Both the position numbers and the translations under genes were made by a program. Below, in pieces: positions 17,920 to 58,522 of a stretch of DNA of 64,000 nt (position 1 is its first letter; the number at the start of each line of letters is the position of its first letter). The stretch spans positions 1,488,001 to 1,552,000 of the forward strand of contig WIUZ02000006.1 in assembly GCA_015956445.1 (NCBI GenBank), given 5' to 3'. The notes beneath the pieces are model-generated. The model saw only the letters and a program-made list of their open reading frames with translations, did not search any database and was not told the origin of the DNA. The DNA is from Thelephora terrestris (taxonomy: Eukaryota > Basidiomycota > Agaricomycetes > Thelephorales > Thelephoraceae).

Positions 17920-18420
17920 CACTGGGGGCAGGGGCACCTGGAATCTGTGATTAAATCTTGATTACATTGTGAGTTCATGTGCAATTTTCAATGATTGTAA
18001 TCACCGATTCCAGGTTGATTACATTCCAAATGTTACCTTGACATGTGATTCAACTGTGCCCACCAACTCCATTTGAAATTTCCTCAAAATTTTCCCAAGC
18101 AATGTTTCCTGAATGCGCCCACTGGGCACATTGTGAAAACATCTCATGTTTTTGAGCGCATTTAGATTACATCTCAGACGATTGAAGAACATGTTGACTA
18201 CATTGCAGCATCATTTTTGCCAACAGGTAAAGAACATCCCAGAAACATTTGTAGAGAACATTTCAAATGTAATTGGTGGACATTGGCTGGATTAAATGTC
18301 AAGGCAACATTTGAAATGTACTCAACCTGGAATCGGTGATTACAATCATTGAAAAGTGCACATGAACTCACCATGTAATCAAGATGTAATCACTGATTCC
18401 AGGTGCCCCTGCCCCCAGTG
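17920..18420. mobile_element. Palindromic CACTG element, subfamily 2, copy a (501 bp)
   Basis: Starts CACTGGGGGCAGGGGCACC and ends with its reverse complement, flanked by the 3-bp duplication CCA (17917-17919 and 18421-18423). The two halves are inverted copies meeting near 18170, so the whole element can fold on itself. It is filled with variants of TGATTACAT/ATGTAATCA and AACATTTGAAATGT. No reading frame is present. The copy at 53899-54399 has the same length. Likely a non-autonomous DNA transposon moved by a CACTA-type transposase. Confidence 0.9.
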
Positions 18421-21400
18421 CCAGGAAGGTACCTGAACCGATAGTGGTGCTCGCGTCGATAAACGGACACGAGGTTCGCGCTCTAATCGATACGGGTTCG
18501 ATGGCCGACTTCATATCGACAACAGTTGTCGAGCAGCTGAAGTTGACGAAGGAGGTCTATACGAAGCCCTTGTCAGTACAGTTGGCGGTACACGGTTCGC
18601 GATCAAAAATCAATTGCGGAACCAGAGTCAGATTCCAATATCAATCAATTGATGGTGAAAGAAGGTTTGACGTCGCTAATTTAGACAATTACGACGTCAT
18701 CCTAGGAACACCATTTATTTACCAACATAAAGTTGTGATTGGACTAAACCCTCCCTGCGTCGTAGTCGGTTCCAGCGAACCATTAAATATAAACGGACCG
18801 GACATCGTGACTATCACGTCAGCCGCAGCGGATCTATTGGACGACGGGATGGATAAATTAAGGAAACAGCTAAGGGCAGAGGCGGAAGACCTCTGTCCCG
18901 ATACGCCGAGAACCGCACTACCTCCGTTAAGGGCGGTGAATCACACCATCCCGCTGATTGACCCTAAGAAAATATACCGGTTCAGGCCATCGAAATGCCC
19001 CGAGGCGTTTCGCGATCAATGGAGACTGAAGAAGAATGCCTACCTGGAAACCGGGAGGTGGCGTACGGCAACCGGACACAATGCTATCCCCTTGCTAATG
19101 ATCCCTAAAGTATCCGCAGCGAGTGATAAGCCTGGGTTAAGAACGGTGTTTGATAAGAGAGAACAAAACTCAAATACCTACAAGTTGGCGTCACCTCTGC
19201 CGGACATCGAGGAGATCCTGCGCGACGTATCGAAACATAAGTTCCGAAGCCTGATTGATGGGAAGGACGCCTATGAACAGATAAGGGTCATCCCTGAGCA
19301 CGTCGGACGTACGCTGTTCACGACACCCGACGGAACCATGGAGAGTTTAGTGATGCAACAAGGAGACTGTAATGCCGGCGCCACTTACCAAACGTTGATG
19401 AATCACATCTTCGCGCCGTACATTGGCGTCTTCATGTACGTCTACCTAGACGACATTATCATATTCTCAGATTCTGTAAGAGAACACGTCGATCACGTTA
19501 GAATAATATTTGACGTCCTACGCCGGGAGAAACTGTACCTTGGTCCCAATAAGATGCAGTTCTTCGCGAAAGAGCTGAAGATACTAGGACACGTAATCGA
19601 TGAGAAGGGAATCCGCATGGATCCTCACAAGGTGGACAAGGTAATGAACTGGAAAACACCCACCAATAAGGACCTATTGTGTAGCTTCATAGGCGCGGTA
19701 GGATTCCTGGCTCCCGACTGTAGGGGGATCAGGATCCCGATGGGACAATTGTCTACGTTAACAGCGGAACTAAGACCCTGGCGTTGGGATGCCACGGCTC
19801 AGCGGTCGTTCGAAGAAGTCAAGCGAATTGTAGACACTCACCGAGATGACCGACGGAAGGCGCTAGATTACTCGGAGGGTGCTGATCCCATATTCGTAAC
19901 GACGGATGGATGCCTTACTGGAGGCGGGGGATTCGTTAGCCAAGGGAAGGACCCCAAGACCGAGAACGTAGTGGCATTCTGGTCCGGTAAATGGAACGGC
20001 GCCCAGCAAAACTACCCTGTACACGAGCAGGAGTTGTTGGCGCTGGTCGAAACGTTGAAACGTTTCAGGGGAGTCCTACATGGCACGAAATTCACAGTTA
20101 GAACAGATCACAGAGCGTTGACTCACTTCATGCAACAGAGGAATCTGTCCGCGAGACAACATCGCTGGATAGATGTTCTCAGTGAGTTCGACTTCGAGAT
20201 CGAGTATATACCAGGCGAGACGAATGGATTCGCCGACGCCCTATCGCGGATCTATAGTGACGAATCACCGGGCATCATCAGAGCGCCGAGTGAACTCGTT
20301 GACGACAAGGACGAGCTGAAGACGTATCAGTCGGTGAAAGTGGGACCGGTATACGTCGAGGCGTACCTACTCTCATTGGTCAATGCTGAATTCAGGAGAT
20401 CGTCGCGATTGGCAAGCAAAACGAGTCCCCAATATAAAGAGACCCGGGACAGAGGGTCGGGAAGAAATCGGGAGACGACGGAAGAAACCCTTGAGAATAT
20501 CAAGACAGTCGAAGGTCGGAAAGACGAACCGGCCGCCGAGGGAGACGGGGAGGCCACTCCTCGACCCCAGGAGACGTCCCAAACGTCAACCACTCTGTTA
20601 CTGGATGTGTCCAGTGACCTAGGAGTCGAGTTCCCAGGTTGTATCCGGAACTGATATGGGGAAGATTCATTCTTCGACCCGATCCTGAAGAACCCGGATG
20701 AATTTAATAACTTCAAGGTGGAAGATGGACTTATTTACTTCACCTCGGATGGGACGGAAACGGTCGCGATCCCAGACGTTAAGATAGGCAGTCAGAATGT
20801 GAGGGAGCTCCTGATTCGTCAGGGTCACTCAATACTGGCGCACCTAAGCGCTGAGAAGACAGCTACCTACCTCAGGGATCAGGTCTGGTGGAAGACGATG
20901 GTTACCGACATCGACAAATATTGTAGGACCTGCCACGTTTGTGCGATCAGTAAGCCACAGAACGGGAAGCCTCAAGGGAAGTTGAAAACGATGCCGGTGC
21001 CTACACGCCCGTGGCAATATGTCGGGATTGATTTCGTGGGTCCACTCCCGGAATCTTCCAACAGAACGGGCGATTTCGACATGATCTGTGTCGTGATTGA
21101 CCTGCTGACTTCGATGGTTCACCTTGTTCCGTCGAAGCAGACTTATCGCGCTTCAGACGTGGCGGAATTGATATTTGATTCAGTCTACAAGTTACACGGG
21201 CTACCGGAACGTATTATAAGCGATCGTGATTCCCTGTTCACCGCGAAATTCTGGAGGAGGTTGCACGCGTTATTGAACACGGAACTCCGTATGTCGTCGG
21301 CGTTCCACCCGCAAACGGATGGGGCAACCGAGCGTGCGAACCGCACCATGACACAGATGATCAGGCAGTGTGTTAGCCCGAGTCAGAAGGATTGGGTGAT

Positions 21401-21589
21401 GAAATTGCCGGCGGTTGAGTTTGCGATTAACTCGGCAAGATCAAGTACCACGGGATTCTCACCGTTCCAACTTAACTACGGAAGGAACCCGAGCTCGCTT
21501 ATCTGGAAGGTTGAGGATGAATTCCCGGGAGTGCAAAGGTTTGCCGAACGAATGAAATTGGCTATAATGAGTGCCCACGACGCCATTAC
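18421..21589 (+). CDS. Pol region of element B, first part (protease, RT, RNase H, integrase)
   Basis: An aspartic-protease motif (LIDTGSMADF) lies near 18.49 kb. Reverse transcriptase has IDGKDAYEQIRV and the canonical YLDDIIIFSD near 19.44 kb. RNase H shows TTDGCLTGGGG and a final GETNGFADALSR. Integrase shows a zinc region (HSILAHLS...CRTCHVC) and the core blocks DFVGPLP, ISDRDSLF and HPQTDGATERANR. Domain order and the YLDD box mark a Ty3/gypsy chromovirus. The region is broken and is cut at 21590 by a palindromic element; treated as a fossil. Confidence 0.85.
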
Positions 21590-22954
21590 ACTGGGGACAA
21601 GGGTTGGTTTACTGAGTCAGTAAACTTTGAGTAAATTGCAAGCAAATGGAAAAAGAACCCAGCAAAAAACTTGCCTGGCAAGCACAAAGCAAATTCACAA
21701 TTTACTGAGCCAATTTACCTGCAATTTACTGGGTTCAGTATGCGCTCAGTATGTTTGCAGTTTACTGGGTCATGTGACCACAGTTTCCCCATTAGGTAAA
21801 CCTCGGAAAAATTCACAATTTACTGAACAAATTTACCAGCAATTTACTGAGCCGCTTGCCCAATCAGTATGTTTTTAATTTGCTGAGTGGTTTGATCATG
21901 ATTTACTGGACTCAGCAAACTGGAAAAAAACCAAACTGGTTTACTGACAACGTCCCTGATTGGTCAATTTTAAAAATAACCGAAAATTTACCTGGACGTG
22001 TCATTGTCAGTAAACTGCAAGTTTTCTTTCAGTAAATTGGAAATACACGTCAGGTAAACTGGGAAAACACATGACAGTTTGATTGTGGTTTACTGGACTC
22101 AGTAAATCAGAAAAAAACCTAACCGGTTTACTGACGATGTACCTGATTGGCTAATTTGAAAAAAACTCGAAATTTTACCAGGACGTGTCTTTATCAGTAA
22201 ACTGCAAGTTTTCTTTCAGTAAATCACAAGTACACGTAAAGTAAACCAGAAAACACGTGTAAACTGTAAGTAAATTCAAAGTTCACGTGTTTTCTGGTTT
22301 ACTTTACGTGTACTTGTGATTTACTGAAAGAAAACTTGCAGTTTACTGATAAAGACACGTCCTGGTAAAATTTCGAGTTTTTTTCAAATTAGCCAATCAG
22401 GTACATCGTCAGTAAACCGGTTAGGTTTTTTTCTGATTTGCTGAGTCCAGTAAACCACAATCAAACTGTCATGTGTTTTCCCAGTTTACCTGACGTGTAT
22501 TTCCAATTTACCGAAAGAAAACTTGCAGTTTACTGACAATGACACGTCCAGGTAAATTTTCGGTTATTTTTAAAATTGACCAATCAGGGACGTTGTCAGT
22601 AAACCAGTTTGGTTTTTTTCCAGTTTGCTGAGTCCAGTAAATCATGATCAAACCACTCAGCAAATTAAAAACATACTGATTGGGCAAGCGGCTCAGTAAA
22701 TTGCTGGTAAATTTGTTCAGTAAATTGTGAATTTTTCCGAGGTTTACCTAATGGGGAAACTGTGGTCACATGACCCAGTAAACTGCAAACATACTGAGCG
22801 CATACTGAACCCAGTAAATTGCAGGTAAATTGGCTCAGTAAATTGTGAATTTGCTTTGTGCTTGCCAGGCAAGTATTTGGCTGGGTTCTTTTTCCATTTA
22901 CTTGTGATTTACTCACAGTTTACTGACTCAGTAAACCAACCCCTGCCCCCAGTG
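21590..22954. mobile_element. Palindromic CACTG element, subfamily 1, copy a (1,365 bp)
   Basis: Starts CACTGGGGACAAGGGTTGG and ends CCAACCCCTGCCCCCAGTG, with the 3-bp duplication TTA (21587-21589 and 22955-22957). Two arms of about 680 bp are inverted copies meeting near 22272. TTTACTG/CAGTAAA and close variants recur roughly 30 or more times by eye, over the entire length. No coding capacity. Nearly the same sequence occurs at 25045 and 30334. Confidence 0.92.
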
Positions 22955-24429
22955 TTATTGGGTCGCGCATGGAAAATACTATTCAGGCTAATAAAAAGCG
23001 GGCGGTCGCGAACTATCAGGTGGGGGACCTGGTGTACCTATCTACGCGGAATATCTCGTTGCCTAAAGGACTGGCGAGGAAATTAGCCCCTAAGTACCTC
23101 GGGCCGTTCGCGATAACGAAGGTGCTAAGGGAGGGCGCAACTTACCAGTTGGACTTAAGCGAGGAACTAGTCAAGCGAGGGATCAACCCCGCATTTCACG
23201 CGTCGCTACTGAAACCACATTGGCCTAATGACGACCGACGTTTTCCCGGACGGCTGCCATCACAGATCCCCGGCTTCGGAAAGCGCCCGGAAGAGTGGGT
23301 TGTTGAGGCGATCGTTGATCATCAGGGAAAAGGGATTAATAGTGAATTTCAAATTGTGTGGAAAGCTGGCGATAAGACATGGGCACCTTACCGAGAGGTG
23401 GCACACTTGATGGCGATGGAAAGGTACTGCGAACTCATGGGAGTCGCAGGGCCTGGTGACCTGCCGGCTAAACGACACAGTGGGAAAGACAGGGAACGCG
23501 AGGTTACAAGTTATTCCTTGAGATTAACCGGCGAAACGTATAAAGGGGAGGTTGGGTTGGGAGAGAGACCTGACATCCCCACTATGCCTCGCAACTTATC
23601 TCACAGCGAATTCATCGCCTGCGCTTCCTACGCCCAGCACCTTCGCGACATCAGCCGTGGCCTACGTATGCCGCCTACTGGTCCGCCTCCTCCGGGTTAC
23701 GAGGAGTACATCCTCCTCGCATCTACTCAAGGACATCCCGCCGACGTCAACGATAGACCCTCGTCTTACCCCAGCAGCCACGGGCCTGGCGATCAGACCC
23801 ACTCTATCAGCATGCCTCCCGAGGCCTTCAATCATTTGATTGACTCCCAGGTCCGTACCATGGAGTTGGCGACCGGCTATCGCCCTCGATCGGGATATGA
23901 CTACCCGAAGCCGTACGGCCGGACTTACAAGTACCCTCGTGGTCGCGGACGCGGATTCAATAATATCAGGGGTCGCGGAGCTGGAAATAGAGGAACCCGC
24001 GGACGTCCTATCCCAGGGGGTCAGGGGATCAATCATAGGGCTCGTCCATCTAGTCGTTCCGACGATGACGTCGCCTCCCCGCCTACTTCGGGAGGGACTT
24101 CCCGCACCACTCGTCGAATCGGATCTGATCAACCCGTTGCTTCCGCTTCCGGCTTGGCGAACTCCAGCGCTGGGGCTTCGTCCTCCAATCAGTCCGGATT
24201 CAGGGAGGTGGTTAGCGAGGGAGATACCTCTTCTGAGGGAGGAGGGACGGTCTGCAGCTCGGCTACCACGTTCCTAAGGAGGGTCCCGGCTGACGAAGTC
24301 GAGGCTGCTCTCACCTGGAGGCACGAGGAGTTGGAGAGGAGGATGAACGGTGTGTCCGTCGAAGAAGACGACGATATGGAGGACGCGCAGGGTGAACCGG
24401 CCAGCGATGCTGAGGCCGAGAAGGAATGA
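22955..24429 (+). CDS. Pol region of element B, C-terminal part with chromodomain and RG-rich tail
   Basis: After the palindromic insertion the frame encodes the end of integrase (NISLPKGLARKLAPKYLGPF, FHASLLKPHW). A chromodomain follows (EWVVEAIVDHQGKGINSEFQ...KTWAPYREV) near 23.29-23.44 kb. The frame then continues for about 320 residues: a proline-rich stretch, an arginine-glycine-rich segment (PRGRGRGFNNIRGRGAGNRG) near 23.93-24.0 kb and an acidic tail. The chromodomain would direct integration to marked chromatin. The RG-rich extension is not standard for chromoviruses and may bind RNA. The frame ends about 100 bp before the 3' LTR. Confidence 0.8.
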
Positions 24430-24524
24430 AGGGTGATACCGAATTTTATTTATTTTCTCGAAATTTTTTTCTGACTACCCTACGGCGTTGAGGCAGTAGT
24501 GTTGGACACTACTGGGAGGGCGAC

Positions 24525-24811
24525 TGTGAGCGTAGCGCCACCCCGACGGCGGCCAATCGGCCCGTAGTTAGATCAGGCAGAACCTTTACAATCACTTTAT
24601 TTCGAGACACGCAACAACCTTTGTTCCTTATCTAAAGTAGTCCTATATTACCTAAGCTACAGACCAGTATATAAAGCAGCTTAGGTAGATACTGAAACGA
24701 GGACGCTTTCGAACAGTTCTTACCCGTGTGTTTGCCTCAACTCGACTGAACTCACGTGACCCGGGATACCCGAATCACTTCCGAGTCCTAGCTCGAGTCT
24801 GAGGGTTCACA
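24525..24811 (+). repeat. 3' LTR of element B
   Basis: Same 287 bp as 14409-14695 with about one difference. TATATAAA at 24668-24675. It is followed by the duplicated CCTTC, after which the antisense region of element A resumes. Confidence 0.95.
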
Positions 24812-26985
24812 CCTTCGCAATCACCTTCTTCTCCCTCTCCTGCTTCGCCGGAGTCTCCTTTTTCATTTCCCTCTTTACCTTCTTCTGCCCTTTTCCCCGG
24901 AGACTGCGCAACTTCGGCGTTGGAGGACTCCCCTGAGTCTCCTTCCATTCCTCGTCCATGGCTTCCGTTTCCTCGCCCCGAGTAGTGGTGGTCGGCGAGT
25001 CTGGAGTTACCTCTTTCCTCTTCGGGATGCGCTGCACTGGAGAACACTGGGGGCAAGGGTTGGTTTACTGAGTCAGTAAACTGTGAGTAAATTGCAAGTA
25101 AATGGAAAAAGAACCCAGCCAAATACTTGCCTGGCAAGCACAAAGCAAATTCACAATTTACTGAGCCAATTTACCTGCAATTTACTGGGTTCAGTATGTG
25201 CTCAGTATGTTTGCAGTTTACTGGGTCATGTGACCATGGTTTACCCATTAGGTAAACCTCGGAAAAATTCACAATTTACTGAACAAATTTACCAGCAATT
25301 TACTGGGCCACTTACCCAATCAGTATGTTTTTAATTTGCTGAGCGATTTGATCACAATTTACTGGACTCAGTAAACTGGAAAAAAACCAAACTGGTTTAC
25401 TGACGACGTACCTGATTGGTCAATTTGAAAAATAACCGAAAATTTACCTAGACGTGTCATTGTCAGTAAACTGCAAGTTTTCTTTCAGTAAATTGGAAAT
25501 ACACGTCAGGTAAACTGGAAAAACACGTGATGATTTGATCGTGGTTTACTGGACTCAGTAAATCAGAAAAAAACCTAACCGGTTTACTGACGATGTACCT
25601 GATTGGCTAATTTGAAAAAAACTCGAAAATTTACCAGGACGTGTCTTTATCAGTAAACTGCAAGTTTTCTTTCAGTAAATCACAAGTACACGTAAAGTAA
25701 ACCAGAAAACACGTAAACTTTGAATTTACTTACAGTTTACACGTGTTTTCTGGTTTACTTTACGTGTACTTGCGATTTACTGAAAGAAAACTTGCAGTTT
25801 ACTGATAAAGACACGTCCTGGTAAATTTTCGAGTTTTTTTTCAAATTAGCCAATCAGGTACATCGTCAGTAAACCAGTTAGGTTTTTTTCTGATTTACTG
25901 AGTCCAGTAAACCATGATCAAATCATCACGTGTTTTTCCAGTTTACCTGACGTGTATTTCCAATTTACTGAAAGAAAACTTGCAGTTTACTGACAATGAC
26001 ACGTCCAGGTAAATTTTCGGTTATTTTTCAAATTGACCAATCAGGTACGTCGTCAGTAAACCAGTTTGGTTTTTTTCCAGTTTACTGAGTCCAGTAAATT
26101 GTGATCAAACCGCTCAGCAAATTGGAAACATACTGATTGGGCAAGTGGCTCAGTAAATTGTGGGTAAATTTGTCCAGTAAATTGTGAATTTTTCCGAGGT
26201 TTACCTAATGGGGAAACTGTGGTCACATGACCCAGTAAACTGTAAACATACTGAGCACATACTGAACCCAGTAAATTGTAGGTAAATTGGCTCAGTAAAT
26301 TGTGAATTTGCTTTGCACTTTCCAGACAAGTATTTCACCAGGTTCTTTTTCCATTTACTTGTAATTTACTCACAGTTCACTGACTCAGTAAACCAACCCC
26401 TGCCCCCAGTGGAAGGAGGTACGAGAACATACGGAAGCTTCGCTCTCGGCGAAGGTCTCCCCGTCTTTGGAGTCTTCAGCGCCTTCACTTCCGTCGATGG
26501 AAGCCCCTCCCCGCTGATGAGGTTCCGTTGAACCACGTGCCGCAGGTACTCTACAACTGGGCCGTACGGCTGCACTCCCGCTTCCCGGCACACTTCATAG
26601 TGCCTCACCTGGGTTTCTTCATTAACAGGAAGCTCTCGCGCGAAGGTATCTCTAGGAGAAAACTCACTATCCAAGCCTTTACGAGAACGGTCCACGTTCT
26701 ATCCCCGGTACCTAGTTCCTCGAAAGTACTCAACCTCCACACCTCGCGGACAGATTCCCAGATCCCCTTAGTCGACGGATACGCAACCTTCACCTCTTCA
26801 AAAGTCCACGGAGAGTCGTTCTCGATAGATGGGAACAATCCTCCCTTACGATCAATCGCGTCAAGGGGACCGAACGGAGGAAGAGGGTTCCCCTTAGCGT
26901 CAGATGGGAACCAGGTCATAGAGAACGGAGGAAAGGTTAGCGAGTTGGCAACCGAGGACGGTTGATTTTTAAAGTCCCGAGGAGA
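24812..26985 (-). CDS. Antisense accessory reading region of element A, proximal part
   Basis: Between element B and the 3' LTR of A, the minus strand holds coding-looking blocks. One is lysine/glutamate-rich (24.81-25.04 kb). Others (26.42-26.95 kb) contain WTFEEVKVAYPSTKG and REVWRLSTFEEL. One of these frames runs unbroken into the U3 half of the 3' LTR, to about 27.3 kb. The palindrome at 25045-26411 splits the region. No known domain is recognised. The position parallels the antisense genes in LTR families L1-L3. Treated as a fossil. Confidence 0.5.
25045..26411. mobile_element. Palindromic CACTG element, subfamily 1, copy b (1,367 bp)
   Basis: Starts CACTGGGGGCAAGGGTTGG and ends CCAACCCCTGCCCCCAGTG, with the 3-bp duplication GAA (25042-25044 and 26412-26414). 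Same full-length inverted structure and TTTACTG/CAGTAAA filling as the copies at 21590 and 30334, with a centre near 25728. It lies within the antisense region of element A. Confidence 0.92.
26970..26985 (+). promoter_or_regulatory. Polypurine tract of element A
   Basis: TAAAGTCCCGAGGAGA directly precedes the TGTCGC start of the 3' LTR at 26986. This is the position expected for the plus-strand primer of an LTR element. An identical 15-bp copy without an LTR stands at 13321-13335. Confidence 0.6.
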
Positions 26986-28105
26986 TGTCGCAACGTCGAA
27001 ACTCTCAATCTCCGATTCCTTCCTATTGGTCGTTCGACTCCATTGAGTTCCGGACTCTTCTTGGCCTCGTGACTGCCTCGAGGCAACCTTCACCCTGATC
27101 ACCGGACCGCCTCTATTGTTTCTCGGACGTTCTTCCCCGCTTCGCGTCCCCTCTCGGGAACCCTGTTTCGAATCCTCGCGTTCTGCCATCTGCCACCCGC
27201 TACTCGACCTTCCGGAACTCTGATATCCCCGACGCCTCGTTCCCCTCGCCTTGCATCCTCGTTTCGACTCTCGTTCTAGCCCTTCGCCATCGCCATCTAT
27301 CGTTATCAATTCCTCCCGCCATCGATCTCCGGTTATCCCATCGTTCTGTGCTCTCGTCCCCGCGAATCCTTATCGATCGGAACTTCCCGGTCGATCGATC
27401 AGTTCCATTCCCCGCACCGTTCCGTTCTCCGGGCATTTGCCTCCATTGCTATCTTCCGCTCTCGATTTCTGTTCCCCTGCATTTTCTCCTGTATGACGCG
27501 GCTTCCTCTCGTGCCGTCGTCACCCCTTCGTCATCGTCCCTGTAGTTACTCAGCCTTCGTCATCGTTTCCCCCCCCTAGTAGTTACCCCTCTTACCAAGT
27601 TCCTCTTAGTTTCGCTTTTCCGTTCCCCTTCTCTCTCACGGACTATCTCGACACTGCTTATTTAGGAGATTCATCGGTTTCCTTTATATACTGTGTCTTA
27701 GATAGCCTGGAATGCATCGACTCAGATCCCCCAGTTCAGTTTCAGTCCGAGTTCTCCAGTTCTCCGGTTCGCTCTCCAGTTCTCAAGTCAAGTTCTCGGC
27801 TTCTCTGTGTCTTTTCTCTTGCTCCCACCAAAAGCCTGCCTCAGCTACTTTACGATTTCGCGGTGATTCTATATCGCAACTCTCAGCAACCTCGGTTCCT
27901 ATCCCCCTCTGCTTTGTCTCGAATCTCGCGCTTTACTCTAGCCGTCGCGGTCTTCCCCGGCGATTCTCCAGACATCTTCGGGCATCTCTGAACAGCTCTT
28001 CTGTTCCGGTGGTCGTACAGAACTCAACACTCAACCGGTACCCACCTCAACTGCTTGTACACTCTTTTTAGGGTATCCGACTACCCGGAGTGTTCAGTTA
28101 GTTCA
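26986..28105 (+). repeat. 3' LTR of element A
   Basis: Matches 5071-6189 with about five differences, including one length change in a C run. TATATA at 27685-27690. Followed by CCGA, which also precedes the 5' LTR. Transposase coding sequence resumes immediately after. Confidence 0.93.
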
Positions 28106-28970
28106 CCGAGCTTTTGGCGGAGAAAGGTACCTCGAAGTATTGGGACTGCAAAACGTCAACAACAAGTCGGGTTTGTGATTTACACAAAGATACACCTGCA
28201 AAACTTACGATATTCCAGGGGATTTAGAGGCCACCTTCATGACTTCTGTTTGTCGAAGTTCAAACCTCCAAGCGTTGGTAGACTCGTGCGGCCTCCCGAA
28301 CCCAGCCAAGCCTCTGTTATCCGCGTACAACACCATCGTCAACGAAGACCACCGAGGCACTCGACTTGCCAATGAAGACCACCACCCCCCAACAAAACCC
28401 CCCGTTATGAGACCCTGGATGACGAGTCTTACCGACTTTTGCTGCAGGCATTTAACGAGAAGTTTGAAACCGTGAGGTACACTTCTGAGAGTGACCCGAG
28501 ACGTCGACAAGCTCGAAAAGGTTTCTATTCGTGGTGTGGTGTATGCTCACGAGAGGTCGCTGCCCCGTGACAGCAATGTCCTGTTTCGGCGTTTGGGTGG
28601 TTTGACCTCAAGGGTCGGCAGAATCCAGTAGATATTCTGTCTTCGGCACCCAACTCCGGATGGCCTCATGATGCAGGCAACTTACGCCATTGTGCGTGAA
28701 TACCTACCGTTCTTGGACGAAGTGAAACAATCACAGTACACCCAATTCGGCTTCGCAGGCGGCTTCCTCTGTCATCGTGAAAGATGGAACAGGTCTCACA
28801 TAGTCGAATTGACCGGCATCATCTGCCATTTCGCAAAGTTCACGCTGCAGGGCGGTTTTATGCACGTTCTTCCCCTGAACAAGGTGAGAAGCTTGCTACC
28901 CGAGCGTACCCGCACGCTAACTACGCTCAAGATGATGGACTCCTATGATCTCCCTTCTGTCATCTTGTAG
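28106..28970 (+). pseudogene. Tnp2-type transposase, C-terminal portion
   Basis: Just after element A the sequence reads FGGERYLEVLGLQNVNNKS. It then splices through a GT-AG intron (about 28163-28210) into DLEATFMTSVCRSSNLQALV, a block characteristic of Tnp2-like transposases. A final part (YAIVREYLPFLDEVKQSQYT...FAKFTLQGGFMHVLPLNKV) ends with a stop at 28968-28970. Together with 556-2006 and 4946-5066 these are pieces of one transposase gene of the CACTA type. The pieces are separated by the L2 unit and by element A with its nested inserts, so no functional product can come from here. Confidence 0.8.
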
Positions 28971-29279: not shown

Positions 29280-31926
29280 ATGAACGCAGGCCATAACAAG
29301 ACGTGGGTCCCAACATCACCTTCACCCACGGGATTCTCTTCAACAACTCCTTCCAGACCTAACAACGATGTTGGCCATCTGATGTCTAAGAGCAGCAGCG
29401 CTTCAGACGCATCTAGTATCGTCATCGACGTTGACAGTGACATGTGGGTAGCTGTTTTCCCACTGGTGACGGTGGGAGCTTACTATGTCGCCCTAGTAGC
29501 GCTGATACCACACCGTAAACGATCTCTGATTCTAATACTTGACATCGGGCGGTGACTTTCTTTCACAGTCTGATTAAGGAGTCGACGCTGGACCCAGACT
29601 TACCGTTTCCGAGCCACGTCCACCCATCTCCTGGTGACCGGTAGGCTCTTTGCTCCGAAGTTTCTCCCCTTTCTGAAAGATATGCAGCCTGTCGACGAAT
29701 CAAGTTTCAGACCCCATCTCGGCCGTTACGGCTCAACTTCACGCAGTCGCAGCTCAGCTTCGATCGGAAAATCAACAGATAGAGGCAGAGATGTCTGGGA
29801 TCATTCAACAGATCACCGACACCACTTCTTTTGTCGGGAAGGGGAGTCCCAGCCCCGACTGGCGCTGGACTCTCGGTTCTAATGTCGAAGCTCGGTTACT
29901 CCGGTCCTCCTACGATGAACTATGGGATCGCCACGTGAAGTCCACCTGTGAGATCACGGCGGGTATCTCTTTGCAGATGTTCCAAAAACATGTGGCTTTG
30001 TGGAAGCATTACAAAACGATGCTCAGGAGTCATGCAGTACTAGCGGACGACCTTCAACGCCTGACGAGACAACTCATGACCCCTCTCGGTGTGCGTCTAT
30101 TTTCCCCATCTCCCATCTGTATCTATGCCTGATCTAATAACAATCGCAGCCCACCGCTGAGCCCTTTTTTATCTGCCTAGAGGTGTTTTCCACATTGGTC
30201 CCGTCCCTTCCCTATACTCATTTTCTCTACAGGACGACGACTTTCCAATCATTGGACCGGAGGTTGTGCGTATCCTTCGATATCAGCATTGCAATTTTTA
30301 TGGTAAACTTTCTTTAGATTTTGAAGGCCCTCACACTGGGGGCAGGGGTTGGTTTACTGAGTCAGTAAACTGTGAGTAAATCACAAGTAAATGGAAAAAG
30401 AACCCAGCCAAATACTTGCCTGGCAAGCACAAAGCAAATTCACAATTTACTGAGCCAATTTACCAGCAATTTACTGGGTTCAGTATGCACTCAGTATGTT
30501 TGCAGTTTACTGGGTCATGTGACCACAGTTTCCCCATTAGGTAAACCTCGGAAAAATTCACAATTTACTGAATAAATTTACCTGCAATTTACTGAGCAAC
30601 TTGCCCAATCAGTATGTTTTTAATTTGCTGAGTGGTTTGATCACGGTTTACTGGACTCAGTAAATTGGAAAAAAACCAAACTGGTTTACTGACAACGTCC
30701 CTGATTGGTCAATTTGAAAAATAACCAAAAATTTACCTGGACGTGTCATTGTCAGTAAACTGCAAGTTTTCTTTCAGTAAATTGGAAATACACGTCAGGT
30801 AAACTGGGAAAACACGTGACAATTTGATCGTGGTTTACTGGGCTCAGTAAATCAGAAAAAAACCTAACCAGTTTACTGACGATGTACCTGATTGGCTAAT
30901 TTGAAAAAAACTCGAAATTTTACCAGGACGTGTCTTTATCAGTAAACTGCAAGTTTTCTTTCAGTAAATCGCAAGTACACGTAAAGTAAACCAGAAAACA
31001 CGTGTAAACTGTAAGTAAATTCAAAGTTTACGTGTTTTCTGGTTTACTTTACGTGTACTTGCGATTTACTGAAAGAAAACTTGCAGTTTACTGATAAAGA
31101 CACGTCCTGGTAAAATTTCGAGTTTTTTTCAAATTAGCCAATCAGGTACATCGTCAGTAAACTGGTTAGGTTTTTTTCTGATTTACTGAGCCCAGTAAAC
31201 CACGATCAAATTGTCACGTGTTTTCCCAGTTTACCTGACGTGTATTTCCAATTTACTGAAAGAAAACTTGCAGTTTACTGACAATGACACGTCCAGGTAA
31301 ATTTTTGGTTATTTTTCAAATTGACCAATCAGGGACGTTGTCAGTAAACCAGTTTGGTTTTTTTCCAATTTACTGAGTCCAGTAAACCGTGATCAAACCA
31401 CTCAGCAAATTAAAAACATACTGATTGGGCAAGTTGCTCAGTAAATTGCAGGTAAATTTATTCAGTAAATTGTGAATTTTTCCGAGGTTTACCTAATGGG
31501 GAAACTGTGGTCACATGACCCAGTAAACTGCAAACATACTGAGTGCATACTGAACCCAGTAAATTGCTGGTAAATTGGCTCAGTAAATTGTGAATTTGCT
31601 TTGTGCTTGCCAGGCAAGTATTTGGCTGGGTTCTTTTTCCATTTACTTGTGATTTACTCACAGTTTACTGACTCAGTAAACCAACCCCTGCCCCCAGTGT
31701 CAGCGCTCGTCAGCGGGGTTCTACACAATTTTTGCAGGCGCAACAACCTACTACTGGCGGTGGACCCTCGCAAACAACCCCTATGGCCATACCCGTGAAT
31801 CGTTCCTCCAGTCACTCAAAGAAGAGGCCTCTTGAGCAGACAAATAGCGTCAATCACTTGGGACTTTGTAACACTCGGATCCCGCCCGCCCCGTTGAAGC
31901 GAAGGAGGTTGGGGGACGCCGCCTAA
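29280..31926 (+). CDS. Unknown coiled-coil protein with basic C-terminus, split by a palindromic element
   Basis: ATG at 29280 opens a serine/threonine-rich N-terminus (MNAGHNKTW...). Splicing at 29444/29568 leads to LIKESTLDPDLPFPSH. A helical region follows (ISAVTAQLHAVAAQL..., EAEMSGIIQQITDTT), then SPDWRWTLGSNVEARLLRSS. A small exon (DDDFPIIGPE) and a last exon end in PLKRRRLGDAA with a stop at 31926, a probable nuclear signal. The last exon is split by the element at 30334-31699. The gene follows the Tnp2 gene on the same strand, so it may be the accessory DNA-binding gene of that transposon, but this is inference. No known family is recognised. Confidence 0.55.
30334..31699. mobile_element. 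Palindromic CACTG element, subfamily 1, copy c (1,366 bp)
   Basis: Starts CACTGGGGGCAGGGGTTGG and ends with its reverse complement, flanked by the 3-bp duplication TCA (30331-30333 and 31700-31702). The arms meet near 31016. It has the same TTTACTG/CAGTAAA filling as copies a and b. It interrupts the last exon of the gene at 29280-31926. Confidence 0.93.
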
Positions 31927-39335: not shown

Positions 39336-39339
39336 TGCA

Positions 39340-43409: not shown

Positions 43410-43625
43410 GTCAGAGTTAGGTTTAGGGCAGGTTAGGTTTAGGTTTAGGTTTAGGTTTAGGTTTGGTGCTAGGTTAGGTTTAGGGCAGGCTGGGTTTAGA
43501 GCAGGTTAGGTTTGGGGTTAGGTTAGGTTTAGGTTAGGTTAGGTTTAGGTTAGGTTAGGTGTAGGTTTAGGTCTAGGTTAGGGTTAGGGTTAGGGTTAGG
43601 CTAGCTTAGGTTAGGTTAGGTCCAG
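43410..43625 (+). repeat. Telomere-like TTAGG repeat block, right arm
   Basis: Inverted counterpart of 42114-42330, with a TTAGGGTTAGGGTTAGG core near 43580. The CCCTAA block lies to the left and the TTAGGG block to the right of the 1-kb centre. Each points outwards from the centre, as at the two ends of a linear molecule. Confidence 0.75.
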
Positions 43626-44613: not shown

Positions 44614-44876
44614 GGGGAAAAAGTGATTGCGGTGTCCTGCGCAGGTACACAACATGGAAACTTGGGATGTACTTAAGGTGAAATACATGATGGAAACCTC
44701 AGGGACACTGTGGGTGTCCTTGAAAATAACTGAGTCAGTAAACTGCAGGCACACAGGTAAGGAACATTTTGAATGGAATTGACATGACCCCAACAGGATT
44801 AGTGCAAGTAAATTATCCATTTCCTTGCAGTGTATTTGCAGTGTACCGGGCCGGAACACTAGACTTTGTCCCCAGT
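44614..44876. mobile_element. Palindromic-type CACTG element, subfamily 4, left-truncated
   Basis: The right end is CTTTGTCCCCAGTG. The left end, ACTGGGGAAAAAGTG, is nearly its inverse but lacks the first C, where it meets the large palindrome. It contains GCAGTGTATTTGCAGTGTAC, and also CTGAGTCAGTAAACTG, which is the motif of subfamily 1. It lies in the pol gene of element C. No target duplication can be read because the left flank is gone. Confidence 0.7.
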
Positions 44877-46492
44877 GAGATGTGTCCAAGGATGTCGGCC
44901 TGAGGTACTCTGATGAAAGCCTTCTTCCCACTAAACGTAGCCCCATAGGACTTGACGCGCTGGATGATCCGGTGGACTGCTTGGAAGTGCTCCCAGACAA
45001 ATCGTCGAATGCCTGGGTTTTCGGGGATGGTCTTGTACGTTCCGTCGGGAAGCTCGTATCGCGACTTTGGGCCTTTGATGGGGACATCGTCGGCGAAAGG
45101 CTGGGTCCAGTGCGGGATTTCGGGTCGAAGAATGTGGGAGACGTCTCCCTGTAGCACGGCTGGGGAGTTGGTCCAACCCATCGGTAGAACTGTGAGTCGG
45201 AACACGCCAAGGGGGGTGTTGAACGTGGTCATGTCGTGAGAGTCGGGATGAAGCTGGCGCTGGTCAAAGGAAACGTATAGGTCGAGCGTGGTGTAGATGG
45301 AGCGACCAGCGAAGTCTTCAGCAACCACATCAATGTAGGGAGGCATGGCAGCGTTCTTGATCGTAACGGCGTTGAGAGGCTCCAGGGAATGGACCAGACG
45401 TAAGGACTTCCCATCCTTCTTGTAGACACAGAACCATCTACTGTTGTAGGAGGAGGACGAGGGTTCGTAGACACCGGACTGCCACTTGTTCTCGATGATC
45501 TGGGTGACCTCAGAGAGGATCCCGCGAGGGATGGGGCCTTGTCTGAGTACCCAGGGCGTGTGCGCGATGTGCGGGATCTCGATGGGGGCGAAGTACTTGG
45601 GATCAAATGTCCCTCTCTCGTCGTCGGTCCATGCGAATGCCGTGTGATGGGTGCTAACGATCCACTCCGCGAGCTTCACTTCTTCTGGTAGCAGAAGTCC
45701 TTTGCCAAGCGCCATTTGCTTCCGGCGTTCGGGAGTGAAGCGGGGGACGGGGGTGTATTCGGGAGGGTGCGTAGGCAAGGGAGGCATGTCGGCAAGGGGG
45801 TCGGGATGGTCGTGCCGAATGATCCGAAAGTTCTCTGGCAGGGTGGTGGTGACGGGTCGAGTCTTGTTCGCCACTTTCTTGTACAGGAACGTGGATCCAC
45901 CGAAGGTCTCGCTAGCGAGCGGGATCTGGGAGTAGAGCTCCGATAACCACATGCTGGCTGCTCGTGCGGGAGTAAGAGGGTCGAGAGGGGGAGATGGTAA
46001 CTCTTCGCGAAGGGCTGCAAACTCTGTCGAAAGGTCGCGACGGGCGGGAGCATTACCCATCGCGAGGAAGAAATGTTCTAGGCGTTCTGACGAAGTTCCT
46101 GCCACTTCGAGAGGCGGGTAACCGTCTTGGGTGTCTGCATGGTTTTGGGGTGATCCTTCCGTCACACTCGATCTGAGAGCTCTGTAGACCTCTAATGCCA
46201 GGTGGCGGGTGAGAGCTGGTGTCGATGAGGTGGTCGCGACGTTGGGAGGATCGGGGATATCGAGAGTGGAGCGATCCGGTGGGGTCTCAGGATGGCCATC
46301 TATAGAATCGTATCCTATGAAGAAAGAGGAGAAAGGAGTGGGGGCAGCATAGCAGGATGATATGGGGAAAGGAGTGGAGGAGAGAAAAGGAGAAAGGACG
46401 GAGGAAATCGAGACAAGAGGAGGTGGGAGAGGAGACATAGGTGAAACTGACGCAAGTTCTGGGTAGAGGGGACCGGGACAGGGAGGTATCAT
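44877..46492 (-). CDS. Pol of element C, N-terminal part through reverse transcriptase
   Basis: A proline/serine-rich leader is followed by blocks shared with element A: FLYKKVANKTRPV, LPENFRIIRH, EWIVSTHHTAFAWTDDERG and the RT core with TLDLYVSFDQRQL and FADDVPIKGP (near 45.08 kb). The frame ends in the palindromic insertion at 44876, just after the ATFSGKKAF block. It shares the FADD variant of the YxDD box with element A. Truncated fossil. Confidence 0.8.
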
Positions 46493-47116: not shown

Positions 47117-48069
47117 CACTGGGGGCAAGGGGTCAAATACCCAGTGGGTACATGCTGAACACATTGTGATCACAGTCAACAAGTGATCACAATGTGCCCA
47201 GTGGGGGAAATATGAATACATTCAAAATGTGCCTGGCCATGTGAGTCCAATGTGCCCTGTAGGCACATTTTGATTGTGATCACAATGTACCCATCAGTGT
47301 GATCTCAATGTGCCCACTGGGGACATTTTGATTGCGATCACAATGTACACATCAATGTGAACTCAATGTGCCTGCTGTGCACATTTTAATTTCTTTCACA
47401 ATGTTCCCATCAATGTGTTCACAATGTACCCAGCTCATTACATAATAGTTTCTTTCACGATGTTGTCCACAATGTGTCCAGCATGTGGCTGAGCCACTCA
47501 TTCAAAATTCTTTCAAAGATTACCCAGTGATGTGTCCATAATGTCCCCAGGGGGTTCTTTTTGAAGTAATCACAATGTAATCTCAATATTGTTTGATTTC
47601 ACCATGAACTTTCAAAGAAATCACTATGTGTATGGCTGTCCACATTCTAGGCACATCACTGGATACTTTGTGAAAGAAGTTTGAATGAGTGGCTCAGCCA
47701 CATGCTGGACACATTGTGGACAACATCGTGAAAGAAACTATTATGTAATGAGCTGGGTACATTGTGAACACATTGATGGGAACATTGTGAAAGAAATTAA
47801 AATGTGCACAGCAGGCACATTGAGTTCACATTGATGTGTACATTGTGATCGCAATCAAAATGTCCCCAGTGGGCACATTGAGATCACACTGATGGGTACA
47901 TTGTGATCACAATCAAAATGTGCCTACAGGGCACATTGGACTCACATGGCCAGGCACATTTTGAATGTATTCATATTTCCCCCACTGGGCACATTGTGAT
48001 CACTTGTTGACTGTGATCACAATGTGTTCAGCATGTACCCACTGGGTATTTGACCCCTTGCCCCCAGTG
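47117..48069. mobile_element. Palindromic CACTG element, subfamily 3, copy a (953 bp)
   Basis: Starts CACTGGGGGCAAGGGGTC and ends with its reverse complement, with the 3-bp duplication TGC (47114-47116 and 48070-48072). The arms meet near 47593. It is filled with CACAATGTGCCCA, ATGTGATC and CCCAGTGGG motifs, the last of which echoes the element's own termini. No coding capacity. It shares length and sequence with 55390-56342. Confidence 0.92.
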
Positions 48070-53884: not shown

Positions 53885-53898
53885 TCCTGTATGCCAAA

Positions 53899-54399
53899 CA
53901 CTGGGGGCAGGGGCACCTGGAATCGGTGATTACATCTTGATTACATGGTGAGTTCATGTGCACTGTTCAATGATTGTGATCGCCAATTCCAGATTGATTA
54001 CATTTCAAATGTTACCTTGACATGTAATTCAACTGTTGCCACCAACTCCATTTGAAATTTCCTCAAGATGTTCCCAAGCAATGTTTCCTGAATGTATCCA
54101 GTGGGTACATTGTGAAAACATCTCATGTTTTTGAGCGCATTTAGATTACATCTCAGACAATTGAAGAACATGCTGATTACATTGCAGTATCATTTTTGCT
54201 GACAGGTCAAAGGCATCCCAGAAACATTTGTTGAGAACATTTCAAATGGAATTGGTGGACATTGGTTGGATTACATGTCAAGGTAACATTTGAAATGTAA
54301 TCAACCTGGAATCAGCAATTACAATCATTGAAAAGTGCACATGAACTCACCATGTAATCAAGATGTAATCACCGATTCCAGGTGCCCTTGCCCCCAGTG
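53899..54399. mobile_element. Palindromic CACTG element, subfamily 2, copy b (501 bp)
   Basis: Starts CACTGGGGGCAGGGGCACC and ends GGTGCCCTTGCCCCCAGTG, with the 3-bp duplication AAA (53896-53898 and 54400-54402). Same length and content as 17920-18420 (TGATTACAT/ATGTAATCA filling). It lies between the 5' LTR of element C and an unknown host gene fragment. Confidence 0.92.
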
Positions 54400-54402
54400 A
54401 AA

Positions 54403-54965: not shown

Positions 54966-56659
54966 TCATGCATCTCCCGCCTCACGTCCGACAAGGCTGC
55001 GCTCACTAATGCGAACCCATAGCGGTCTTGGAGACCCACCACTTCCACCTTCAACTTCATCCGAACTTGACGTGACTTGTCGGAGGGACGACAGCGTTGA
55101 CCAGAACGAGTCATCGGACTCTTGCGGGTCTTCTTCTTCTGGGACCTCTCCACCATCTGATGAACTGGGGCAGGACTCCAGGGAGGGGATGGAGGGAGAG
55201 GAACGCCCTGATCCTGGCGGTGGCGAAGGGACGACTGGGGACTTGCAAGGGGGGTCGGTGCAATAAGTCCCATGGCACTGATGTCCGAAATATCGGAAGA
55301 GAGATGCCTGGAAAGGTCCCCAATGTTCCAAAGCAAAGTGAGAGAAGTCATCATTCAAGCTGTTCATGATGACGTACATGAGGTCCACACACTGGGGACA
55401 AGGGGACAAATACCCAGTGGGTAAATGCTGAACACATTGAGATTACAGTCAACAAGCGATCACAATGTGCCCAGTGGGGAAAATTTGAATACATTCAAAA
55501 TGTGCCAGGCCATGTGTATCCAATGTGCCCACTGGGCACATTTTGATTGTGATCACAATGTACTCAGCAATGTGATCTCAATGTGCCCAGTGGGGACATT
55601 TTGATTGCAATCACAATGTACCCACCAATGTGATCTCAATGTGCCCAGTGGGCACATTTTAAATTCTTTCACAAAGTGCTCAGCAATGTGTTCACAATGT
55701 ACCCAGCTCATTACATGATGGTTTCTTTCACAATGTTGTCCACAATGTGTCCAGCATGTGCCTGAGCCACTCATTCAAACTTCTTTCACAAAGTATCCAG
55801 TGATGTGTCCATAATGTCCCCAGGGGGTACTTTTTGAAGTAATCACAATGTAATCACAATATTGTTCAATTTCACCATGTATTCTCAAAGAAATCATCAT
55901 GTATATGGCTGCACACATTCTGGACACATCACTGGATACTTTGTGAAAGAAGTTTGAATGAGTGGCTCAGGCACATGCTGGACACATTGTGGACAACATT
56001 GTGAAAGAAACCATCATGTAATGAGCTGGGTACATTGTGAACACATTGCTGAGCACTTTGTGAAAGAATTTAAAATGTGCCCACTGGGCACATTGAGATC
56101 ACATTGGTGGGTACATTGTGATTGCAATCAAAATGTCCCCACTGGGCACATTGAGATCACATTGCTGAGTACATTGTGATCACAATCAAAATGTGCCCAG
56201 TGGGCACATTGGATACACATGGCCTGGCACATTTTGAATATATTCAAATTTTCCCCACTGGGCACATTGTGATCGCTTGTTGACTGTAATCTCAATGTGT
56301 TCAGCATGTACCCACTGGGTATTTGTCCCCTTGTCCCCAGTGACACGCTTCTCCAATTTCACAATCCTATCCTCCCTCTCCCTCTCCATGGCATCCAACA
56401 AAAGGACGGCTCCAGGGTGCTCAGCTTGAACCTGAGGCCTAGAAAGCCTGGGGTCTTTGTACCCAGCTTGTTCCCAGAACTCGGTGGGAGCGTTATGAGC
56501 GGTGAGGAAATCGACGGCGACTTGGTTGTCATGGGCGATATTGGCGGGGGAGTCGTACAAATGTTGCTCCACGTCGTAGGGAGCATTCGTCTCGAAGGAC
56601 GGAGTAAAGGGGGTGGCAGCAGCACTGAGCACGGCGTTGTTGGCAACGAAGGCAGACAT
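54966..56659 (-). CDS. Antisense accessory gene inside LTR L3, split by a palindromic element
   Basis: ATG at 56659 (MSAFVANNAVLSAAATPF). The first exon contains VAVDFLTAHNAPTEFWEQAG and ends in a helical ALLLDAMEREREDRIVKLEK-like stretch. The palindrome at 55390-56342 then intervenes. Beyond it lies VDLMYVIMNSLNDDFSHFAL, then a cysteine-containing CHGTYCTDPPCKSP and an acidic serine-rich end. No family is recognised. As in L1 and L2, the gene is antisense to the LTR and upstream of its TATA box. Confidence 0.5.
55390..56342. mobile_element. Palindromic CACTG element, subfamily 3, copy b (953 bp)
   Basis: Starts CACTGGGGACAAGGGGACA and ends with its inverse, with the 3-bp duplication ACA (55387-55389 and 56343-56345). 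Same length and motif set as 47117-48069 (CACAATGTGCCCA, CCCAGTGGG). It is inserted in the antisense gene of LTR L3. Confidence 0.92.
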
Positions 56660-57882: not shown

Positions 57883-57907
57883 GCAGGCCTACAACCCTGA
57901 CAGGAAC

Positions 57908-58036
57908 GGATGCGGAACAGGCATCGGGGGGTGCGGTGTTCGAGGTTCACGATCGTAGTAGTGGACTCTCCCGTTGTCGCTGTACACTGGTGAGAAGGCG
58001 TTGTGATCCGTGTCACCTTGGGACGGTGGGAGGGGG
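57908..58036 (-). pseudogene. Unknown host gene fragment, part 2
   Basis: The minus strand reads IPLPPSQGDTDHNAFSPVYS then DNGRVHYYDREPRTPHPP. It abuts the duplicated GGAAC of L3 and appears to continue at 54694 on the far side. The other end meets a partial palindromic element. Nothing more can be said of its function. Confidence 0.4.
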
Positions 58037-58522
58037 ATCCGGGAACACTGCAAGGAAACTGGAAAACTGGGAACATTTTGAATGAACTTGTGATGTTCCC
58101 AGTTTTTCCAGTTTCCTTGCAGTGTTCCTGCAGTGTTCCTGACCTTTGCCAAACTCAGTACATCACAGTCGGTGGCACCAGTACATTCTGGATGTACCAC
58201 CCCAGAACACTGCAAATACACTGTTTGGGTGCATTTTGAATTTTCCTGACCAGGAACATTGTAAATGTGCTGATCGTCAACATCGAGGGAACTTTCTTTG
58301 GGAAAATTCTGAATGTACCCATGGATTACCTAATGGGAACATCACTGGAACACTGTGAATGTACTGTCCATTTTCTGTCCTGGAACACTGCAAGGAAATT
58401 GGCCTGGAAAATTCAGGATGTCTTTGCAATGTACTGGGTCTGTTTTTGCCAGGTACATTGTCCATTTCCTTACAATGAACTTGCAATGTTCTGGACCGTA
58501 ACACCACCCCTTGCCCCCAGTG
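58037..58522. mobile_element. Palindromic-type CACTG element, subfamily 4, partial
   Basis: The right end (CACCCCTTGCCCCCAGTG) is intact and the interior is filled with GCAGTGTTC/GAACACTGCA and TTCCTTGCAGTG motifs. The left end lacks the expected CACTGGGG terminus, so its left border is approximate. The bases after the right end (ATT) have no partner. It shares its terminal 60 bp layout with 44614-44876. Confidence 0.65.

Follow-up and report, generated by a model that had tools for sequence, protein, structure and literature searches.

Near-palindromic CACTG-ended elements in Thelephora terrestris: probable non-autonomous CACTA/EnSpm-type transposons with arms probably homogenized within long copies

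Introduction

Transposons of the CACTA/EnSpm family are recognized by short conserved ends, 3-bp target duplications and subterminal repeats, as set out in the accessible parts of two studies (PMC12730594, PMC2613891). The non-autonomous Tgm elements of soybean, which belong to this family, combine conserved short CACTA ends and a 3-bp duplication with subterminal arrays of short repeats that vary between subfamilies of one species, and the available sections of that study pose the question of how fast the subterminal repeats coevolve with the proteins that read them (PMC2613891). For fungi, EnSpm elements are described with CAC..GTG ends and 3-bp duplications, Plavaka elements with TGT..ACA or CATCA..TGATG ends, and the KDZ elements Dileera and Kyakuja with 8-bp and 7-bp duplications, respectively; the accessible part of this source mentions palindromic derivatives for none of the three groups (PMC12730594). 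Cryptococcus CNIRT6 is a CACTA-group element with 24-bp TIRs that start with CACTG. Its predicted full length is ~7.5 kb, it has a transposase gene, and a palindromic body is not described in the available portion of the report (PMC12810828). A further related design is that of Drosophila Galileo, a foldback-like element of the P superfamily for which the THAP domain of the transposase has been shown to bind at several sites; in the F group, single copies carry unequal numbers of tandem repeats in their two TIRs, according to the accessible sections (PMC3573991, PMC3688188).

Here we describe elements from the basidiomycete Thelephora terrestris that share the CACTG start with CNIRT6, the CAC..GTG ends and 3-bp duplications with fungal EnSpm, and the subfamily-specific subterminal arrays with soybean Tgm. 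Whereas the Tgmt* type has a 13-bp TIR and asymmetric subterminal repeats, as far as its available description goes (PMC2613891), the long elements reported here are inverted nearly throughout and consist of one mirrored array and nothing else. Unlike Galileo they have CACTG ends and 3-bp duplications, and changes in their arms are mostly two-armed. Our search of the open-access literature found no account of end-to-end palindromic CACTA-type elements with homogenized arms.

Results

The window, that is the whole 64,000-nt stretch of DNA analyzed (assembly GCA_015956445.1, contig WIUZ02000006.1, positions 1,488,001-1,552,000, forward strand), contains seven complete elements. In agreement with the initial annotation, all seven begin with CACTGGGG and finish with CCCCAGTG, and each is flanked by a matching 3-bp duplication. 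Two belong to a 501-bp subfamily (17920..18420, duplication CCA, and 53899..54399, AAA), three to a 1366-bp subfamily (21589..22954, TTA; 25045..26411, a 1367-bp copy, GAA; 30334..31699, TCA) and two to a 953-bp subfamily (47117..48069, TGC; 55390..56342, ACA). The copies at 17920 and 21589 are insertions in a young Ty3/gypsy element on the + strand (14409..24811), which has both LTRs (14409-14695 and 24525-24811) and CCTTC on both flanks. The copy at 47117 adjoins Ty3/gypsy coding sequence and carries 58-bp repeat units in each arm; the 953 family also includes members of 836-837 bp. Two partial elements are also present, both on the - strand. At 58042..58522 lies a palindrome of the ~875-bp subfamily that keeps its loop and right arm and lacks the left one; full copies of this subfamily were found outside the window. 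At 44614..44877 a remnant of another arm type (CACTGGGGACAAAGTCTAGTG) abuts a different 3.6-kb palindrome at 44614; its end at 44877 was considered as the start of a long element and rejected, as the sequence halts at another palindrome. The boundaries assigned earlier held for most of these features and were corrected for the start at 21589, the right end at 44877 and the last piece, 58042-58522. Rfam gave no matches in the window, and no reading frame of at least 200 aa lies wholly within any of the seven complete elements.

Over all sequence examined, the 3-bp flanks were equal in 27 of 28 two-ended elements and included many different triplets; the count was restricted to copies in which both ends were exact CACTGGGG, a selection rule for 27 of the elements. 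An arm-similarity test blind to the flanks passed 28 end pairs, 27 of them with equal 3-bp flanks, and the remaining pair (47315-47871) corresponds to a repeat inside the element at 47117. Control flanks shifted outwards by 3, 6, 9 and 12 bases matched in 1, 1, 0 and 2 of 28 cases. A search by neighboring ends yielded one more two-ended element, the single exception among the 28: an internally deleted 875-type copy (L062:1260-1823) with unequal flanks, TCC/AGT. One 943-bp copy carries a TACTG end. An element-free site was found for 12 of 27 insertions tested and was ungapped for eight, among them L018 for L021 (98.7% over 155 bp), L079 for L064 (95% over 240 bp) and L074 for 55390..56342 (91.6% over 227 bp), the sole window copy with an ungapped site. 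The elements are genuine and mobile. Genome-wide, CACTGGGGNNAGGGG gave 161 + 158 matches versus 4 + 0 for the reversed control. Searches with the ends of four subfamilies gave 47 + 41 (1225 type), 84 + 80 (1366/872), 208 + 202 (953) and 30 + 25 (875) matches, with one control match altogether. The 40.6-Mb genome contains ends for roughly 350 elements of these four subfamilies.

In each long element a single subterminal arm is present twice in inverted orientation, head to head, with a short loop in between. These palindromes are near-perfect and 0.9-1.4 kb long, the loop in many of them measures 6-51 bp, and loop positions agree across subfamilies (875 with 1225, and 953 with 943). In all three 1366 copies of the window a 187-bp duplication is present in both arms. 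The arms of 30334..31699 pair without mismatch (0/670, leaving out a 26-bp spacer) and those of 21589..22954 with 10 mismatches in 671 pairs (24-bp spacer left out); the arms of 25045..26411 are more diverged than those of the other two. For one strand of an 876-nt copy the predicted fold was one full-length hairpin of -588.8 kcal/mol, whereas 20 shuffled controls averaged -118 kcal/mol. Near-perfect palindromes of such length are generally unstable in model cells. The claim that the elements are inverted repeats from end to end stands for nearly the whole length of the long subfamilies and fails for the 501-bp subfamily, in which BLAST of the two window copies paired only the outer ~167 bp, at 89-91%. 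In nine copies of this subfamily 94-102 of about 250 ungapped pairs were mismatched and the central non-palindromic stretch was 231-303 bp. Judged by position alone, contig C3 has nested ends that mirror each other, at 275 and 276 bp.

The subfamilies had been thought to differ in all internal sequence, which is refuted by comparison of their arms. Among the 21 pairs of seven arm types, 15 match at E <= 0.01 and nine at E 1e-5 or better, with values as low as 5e-50 between named subfamilies; the other six pairs did not match at E 0.01, and the match links connect all seven types. What differs much between related arms is a short recurring motif. Examples are TTTACTG (17 per arm versus 0.23 in dinucleotide shuffles), TGTGCCCA (6 versus 0.10), GTACTTT (6 versus 0.12) and GTGTTCC (4 versus 0.10), roughly 20 to 90 times commoner than in shuffled sequence for motifs that were picked after inspecting the arms. 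An 11-bp lag was within the top six direct lags in 8 of 8 subfamilies examined (2.0-3.5 sd, without a shuffle control). In total, this one genome contains hundreds of insertions and about ten arm types that are related to one another and differ in their repeated motif. The recurring motif may guide the enzyme that moves the elements, and families may have swapped it.

The two arms of a long element mostly resemble each other more closely than they do arms of other copies. In the four long subfamilies the nearest relative was the partner arm of the same copy for 26 of 32 arms, the 1225 family reaching only 6 of 10 with copies that differ by under 3% on average; the corresponding number for the 501 family was 0 of 18. 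Variants present in exactly two arms occurred in the same copy in 22/22, 46/58, 13/15 and 26/29 cases, where 11-20% was expected, and in 1/10 cases in the 501 family. Since partner arms are mostly nearest relatives and two-arm variants lie mostly within one copy, we conclude that arms are homogenized within elements; the 501-bp subfamily lacks homogenization, so the process is not general. Outside the loop, 5 of 16 long copies were free of mismatches. Mismatches were clustered in six of the remaining 11 (P below 0.005) and unclustered in five (P 0.085-0.77). The arms of L021 (918 bp) are unlike in length changes, with 90 gap columns, and its family has 124 one-arm and zero two-arm gap columns. 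For the 1366 copy inside the young gypsy element, the 10/671 arm mismatches compare with 1/288 between the LTRs (P = 0.19, or 0.049 with the loop counted in); this excess is not significant, so that homogenization at transposition and at a later time are not separable by it.

Profile searches of the T. terrestris genome for transposases were performed with PF02992, PF18759 and PF18758. They gave 73 matches for PF02992 (Tnp2), and Plavaka and KDZ genes were abundant, with 132 and 125 matches. By-eye comparison placed none of 28 PF02992 matches on C1-C8 between facing CACTGGGGNNAGGGG ends within 15 kb on each side, using a pattern that misses some ends, such as those of the 1225 type. Three of 30 Tnp2 loci with 1.5-kb flanks show CACTGGGG ends, in each case from miniature elements that lie next to the transposon or within it; long flanks were examined at three loci. 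A 911-aa Tnp2 group (L069) was rejected as partner, its inverted repeats beginning with TGTTGAGC and not with CACTG, and the L009 Tnp2 element (L071, L080) had no ends of the CACTG palindrome kind. L061, where a gene follows an 875-type arm, resembles by eye a nested LTR element. At L004 gene-like sequence follows an arm. With 4.5 kb added, this locus was rejected as a single element; in the joined sequence the facing end, at 4794, belongs to a separate 943-bp palindrome with CCA on both flanks and TACTG as left end. Two 953-type intervals (C23:2046812-2057238 and C8:705464-713487) contain KDZ matches, which we take as presumed nesting. Nested insertions or the autonomous partner could underlie long end pairs such as C56:604290-612232, C23:1695320-1701726 and C3:985719-996621. 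The Tnp2 loci and element stretches examined yielded no autonomous partner with such ends.

Discussion

No Tnp2 gene on an element with matching ends was met among the loci examined; the CACTA/EnSpm assignment proposed at the outset is based on the ends, the duplications and the subterminal repeats. CACT(A/G) ends are present in the seven window copies, the 3-bp duplication is without fixed sequence (27/28), and clusters of short subterminal repeats are present as family-specific motifs. The elements also have the features of MITEs (noncoding, high copy number, TIR, duplication), with lengths of up to 1366 bp that exceed the usual MITE range. With inverted repeats that are long, internally repetitive and arranged about a loop, they resemble foldback-like elements; the 9-bp duplication made by Drosophila FB is absent, there being 3 bp here. 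Also absent is the TWA target duplication preferred by PIF/Harbinger, as duplications include CCA, TGC, AGA and GAT. The ends described for Plavaka in the accessible part of the fungal survey (PMC12730594) were not seen, the ends here being CACTGGGG.

We consider it probable that these elements are of CACTA/EnSpm type and non-autonomous, that they consist of two subterminal arrays set back to back, and that the arms of the long ones are homogenized within each copy. A CACTA-type transposase would act in trans on the CACTG ends, and the repeated motif would form a putative landing array for a TnpA-type subterminal DNA-binding protein. Subfamilies may differ because the motif tracks different TnpA-type proteins. 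Copying of one arm onto the other would keep both alike, most likely by way of a hairpin or cruciform arising from the palindrome itself, in which mismatches would be repaired and the loop left alone.

The likeness of arms could instead reflect youth and descent from several perfect-palindrome sources, without continuing exchange between arms. Copies could inherit symmetry, and the five of 16 long copies that are perfect outside the loop, together with the 1225 copies under 3% apart, indicate that much of the family is recent. We find this somewhat unlikely, however: the sources must have regained symmetry after each change (two-arm variants, the 187-bp duplication), six of the 11 testable copies show clustering of their mismatches, and the coinciding loop positions of different subfamilies are unlike independent new inverted duplications. 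It is rather doubtful that the palindrome is a device for concerted change, by which each element folds on itself, a variant motif in one arm is copied across, whole arrays of recognition sites switch together and subfamilies represent successive codes. Such codes would record a race between the subterminal DNA-binding protein and the elements that parasitize it, and the nested ends on C3 would stem from an insertion that both arms acquired by copying.

Concerning the mobilizer, 3-bp duplications are also made by Chapaev3- and Academ-like lineages, and a transposase outside CACTA/EnSpm, for example of these lineages, might move the elements. The 28 Tnp2 matches without bracketing CACTGGGGNNAGGGG ends and the many Plavaka and KDZ matches are compatible with this, but CAC..GTG ends with 3-bp duplications are the fungal EnSpm pattern, Plavaka ends differ, named KDZ elements give 7-8 bp duplications (PMC12730594, accessible part) and the duplications depart from the TWA preference of PIF/Harbinger, which makes such a mobilizer quite unlikely. 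That the elements persist through hairpin transcripts used by host or transposon for RNA silencing of the mobilizer is very improbable; the full-length hairpin predicted for the 876-nt copy would fit, but such folding is common to any palindrome and, in an unsystematic look, arms were not met within coding sequence. Missed-adapter reads can produce inverted duplications, and an assembly artefact from hairpin reads was considered. Its probability is negligible in view of fixed lengths at many loci, duplications in 27/28, element-free sites, non-symmetric loops and mismatches between arms.

The presence of these arm types and motifs in one genome makes the coevolution of repeats and proteins testable by sequence and binding assays. 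A fungus that keeps many near-perfect palindromes also makes it possible to examine, in a natural setting, how palindromes replicate and whether mirror arms undergo gene conversion.

For a RIP-like bias, with polarity assigned by majority, private changes in one arm were nearly balanced, with 38 C>T plus G>A and 31 of the reverse kind, out of 103. Private changes in both arms leaned toward C>T/G>A, with 47 versus 22 out of 107.

Insertion and recent movement

All seven complete elements that the initial annotation had placed in the window (17920-18420, 21589-22954, 25045-26411, 30334-31699, 47117-48069, 53899-54399 and 55390-56342) were recovered with the claimed ends and 3-bp duplications; the start of the second moved from 21590 to 21589, its ends and duplication being as described. 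End pairs were formed by arm similarity in all sequence examined while the flanks were ignored, so that the duplication test was free of selection. Equal 3-bp flanks were found in 27 of 28 such pairs, the exception being an internal repeat within the 47117 element, and outward-shifted control flanks were equal in only 0-2 of 28. A second pass over neighbouring ends added one more two-ended copy, an internally deleted element of the 875 type (types are named by length in bp) at L062:1260-1823, with flanks TCC/AGT. The expectation that other genomic copies would carry duplications thus held for 27 of the 28 two-ended elements of both passes and failed for this deleted copy. When the joined flanks of the 27 insertions were compared with the sequence examined, empty-site counterparts spanning the insertion point were found for 12, eight of them ungapped (for example L018 for L021, L079 for L064, L028 for L002 and L074 for window 55390, the L numbers denoting loci elsewhere in the genome), and none was found for the other 15. 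Among the window copies only 55390 had an empty site. The elements insert with a 3-bp duplication.

Two copies interrupt a very young Ty3/gypsy element (14409-24811, CCTTC flanks) whose two LTRs differ at 1 of 288 compared positions, and their movement was therefore recent. In the 40.6-Mb genome, whose contig C56 contains the window, single-pattern searches for four subfamilies gave 369 forward and 348 reverse ends against a control total of 1, with the 501, 840 and 943 types additional to these; the general end pattern gave 161 + 158 matches genome-wide versus 4 + 0 in the control. Nesting of elements is common. Elements at L021:2432-3349, L010:1-416, L081:4189-4499 and C15:320796-321631 lie in or beside elements of the Tnp2 and Plavaka kinds and within a copy of the 875 type. 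At C3:985719-996621, judged by end positions only, the left side carries an end of the 875 type at 985719, followed 275 bp inward by one of the 953 type; the far side mirrors this with a 953-type and an 875-type right end separated by 276 bp.

Mirrored arms and concerted change

The elements contain no long reading frames, and the arms of the long subfamilies measure ca. 420-680 bp. With strict ungapped pairing of the arms the unpaired centre was 6 to 117 bp in most long copies; the values of 242, 542 and 213 bp for L002, L021 and window 25045 arise because small indels shift the arms out of register. One strand of 876 nt folds to a single hairpin.

The relationship between arms was examined in 32 arms from 16 copies of the 875, 953, 1225 and 1366 types; the 918-bp L021 element was counted under 953, and the 840 and 872 types, each represented by a single copy, were left out. 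An arm's own partner was its nearest relative for 9/10, 6/6, 6/10 and 5/6 arms, respectively. Variants present in exactly two arms occurred both in one copy in 22/22, 46/58, 13/15 and 26/29 cases, where 11-20% was expected; the binomial P treats variants as independent. Contrary to the initial annotation, the 501-bp subfamily is not fully palindromic. Only 1 of its 10 two-arm variants fell within one copy, and in nine copies the mean distance was 0.067 to corresponding arms of other copies versus 0.251 to the own partner arm. The arms of this type evolve separately.

In 16 long copies, including the 872 copy and excluding L021 and the 840 and 501 types, five had zero mismatches outside the loop; mismatches were clustered at P < 0.005 in six of the 11 imperfect copies and unclustered in five. 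Length changes are partly mirrored as well. Each of the three window copies of the 1366 type carries a 187-bp duplication in its two arms. When their centres are aligned, the 875 and 1225 types differ by a stretch that lies within the arm. Among 100 of 410 953-type matches listed (exact matches only), 25 close pairs comprised 12 of 953 bp, four of 836-837 bp, three of 918 bp and six others of 669 to 907 bp. The 836-837-bp pairs are 116 bp shorter than 953, or 2 x a 58-bp unit; for all 25 pairs except L021, symmetry is suggested by length alone. L021 has one-armed indels. The arms are mirrored and their change is concerted.

Relatedness of subfamilies and arm motifs

The subfamilies had been considered unrelated inside, which proved incorrect: comparison of the left halves of seven types (501, 840, 872, 875, 953, 1225, 1366) gave matches at E <= 0.01 for 15 of 21 pairs and at E 1e-5 or better for nine, while six, e.g. 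501 versus 1366, had no match at E 0.01. Collinear from base 1 are 875 with 1225, 1366 and 872, 840 with 953, and 501 with 840. The L007 arm matched 840 (E 5e-27), and the match of 953 to the 943-bp type spanned the whole length of the latter (E 3e-28). Of the window partials, 44877 belongs to a different arm type, whose match to 875 starts at base 1 (E 1e-19); 58522 is half of an 875-type palindrome. Ten arm types fit one alignment of ca. 260 bp.

The arms are packed with short repeats. For motifs picked after inspection of the sequences, counts per arm (shuffles in brackets) were 17 (0.23) and 10 (0.15) for TTTACTG in the 1366 and 872 types, 6 (0.10) for TGTGCCCA in 953, 4 (0.10) and 5 (0.21) for GTGTTCC in 875 and 1225, and 6 (0.12) for GTACTTT in 943. 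By eye, the motifs substitute for each other at several equal positions of the ten-type alignment. A direct lag of 11 bp, about one helical turn, ranked in the top six in 8/8 subfamilies, as did one of 58 or 116-118 bp in 6/8, with peaks of 2-5.5 sd without shuffle control. The arrays resemble the subterminal binding arrays of CACTA elements. Soybean CACTA elements have conserved ends with subterminal motifs that diverge between subfamilies of one species, probably along with their binding proteins (PMC2613891).

Classification and possible mechanism

The CACTA/EnSpm assignment is supported by the ends, the 3-bp duplication and the subterminal repeats; the elements depart from the short terminal inverted repeats and asymmetric ends of usual CACTA elements and are here termed CACTA-like. 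Functionally they may be CACTA elements reduced to two binding arrays; they have the appearance of Foldback elements. Galileo is the nearest precedent, with long repetitive arms containing multiple binding sites (PMC3688188), but repeat numbers differ between the two arms of one F-group copy (PMC3573991).

A CACTA-type transposase would be supplied in trans, with a TnpA-like protein sitting on the motif arrays. Symmetry could stem from repair in a hairpin or cruciform formed by folding, or from gap repair that copies one of the arms. The loop is unable to pair and stays unlike, in agreement with the prediction of the hairpin reading. With regard to a possible renewal of symmetry at each move, in the 1366-type copy within the young gypsy element 10 of 671 arm pairs were mismatched versus 1 of 288 LTR positions, a difference that was not significant (P = 0.19); counting the loop gave P = 0.049.

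Profile matches in the genome numbered 73 for PF02992 (Tnp2), 132 for PF18759 (Plavaka) and 125 for PF18758 (KDZ). The Tnp2 carrier with matching ends that the initial annotation had proposed to look for was not found: facing general-pattern ends within 15 kb were seen by eye around none of 28 PF02992 matches on C1-C8 (exact-form ends, 100 of 319 listed), and of 30 Tnp2 loci taken with 1.5-kb flanks three had CACTGGGG ends, which in every case were those of miniature elements. One Tnp2 group bears TGTTGAGC ends.

Neighbouring features

Frames at window 539-1637 resemble by eye part of a Tnp2-like transposase and matched no Pfam family at E 0.001. A different near-perfect palindrome of 3.6 kb (40980-44614; arms of 1443 nt + 401 nt at 99%, ends CAGTAGTACTTATT) has no target duplication evident by eye, holds CCTAA telomere-like tracts at 42108-42329 and abuts the remnant at 44614-44877. 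A 2.9-kb inverted repeat with 94% identity (2007-4941 and 58707-61643) lies close to both window ends. At C1:1345394-1345648 an exon-like minus-strand frame, which may resemble the agaricomycete DUF6532 family, adjoins a lone arm. Named relatives of one window Ty3/gypsy protein, among the 120 matches listed, are from agaricomycetes such as Ganoderma, Mycena, Trametes, Grifola and Pleurotus, which makes an agaricomycete the most likely host. A 1.1-kb pair has 99.6% identity (5069-6191 and 26984-28107); the gypsy element at 5-13 kb may have its solo LTR in the second member.
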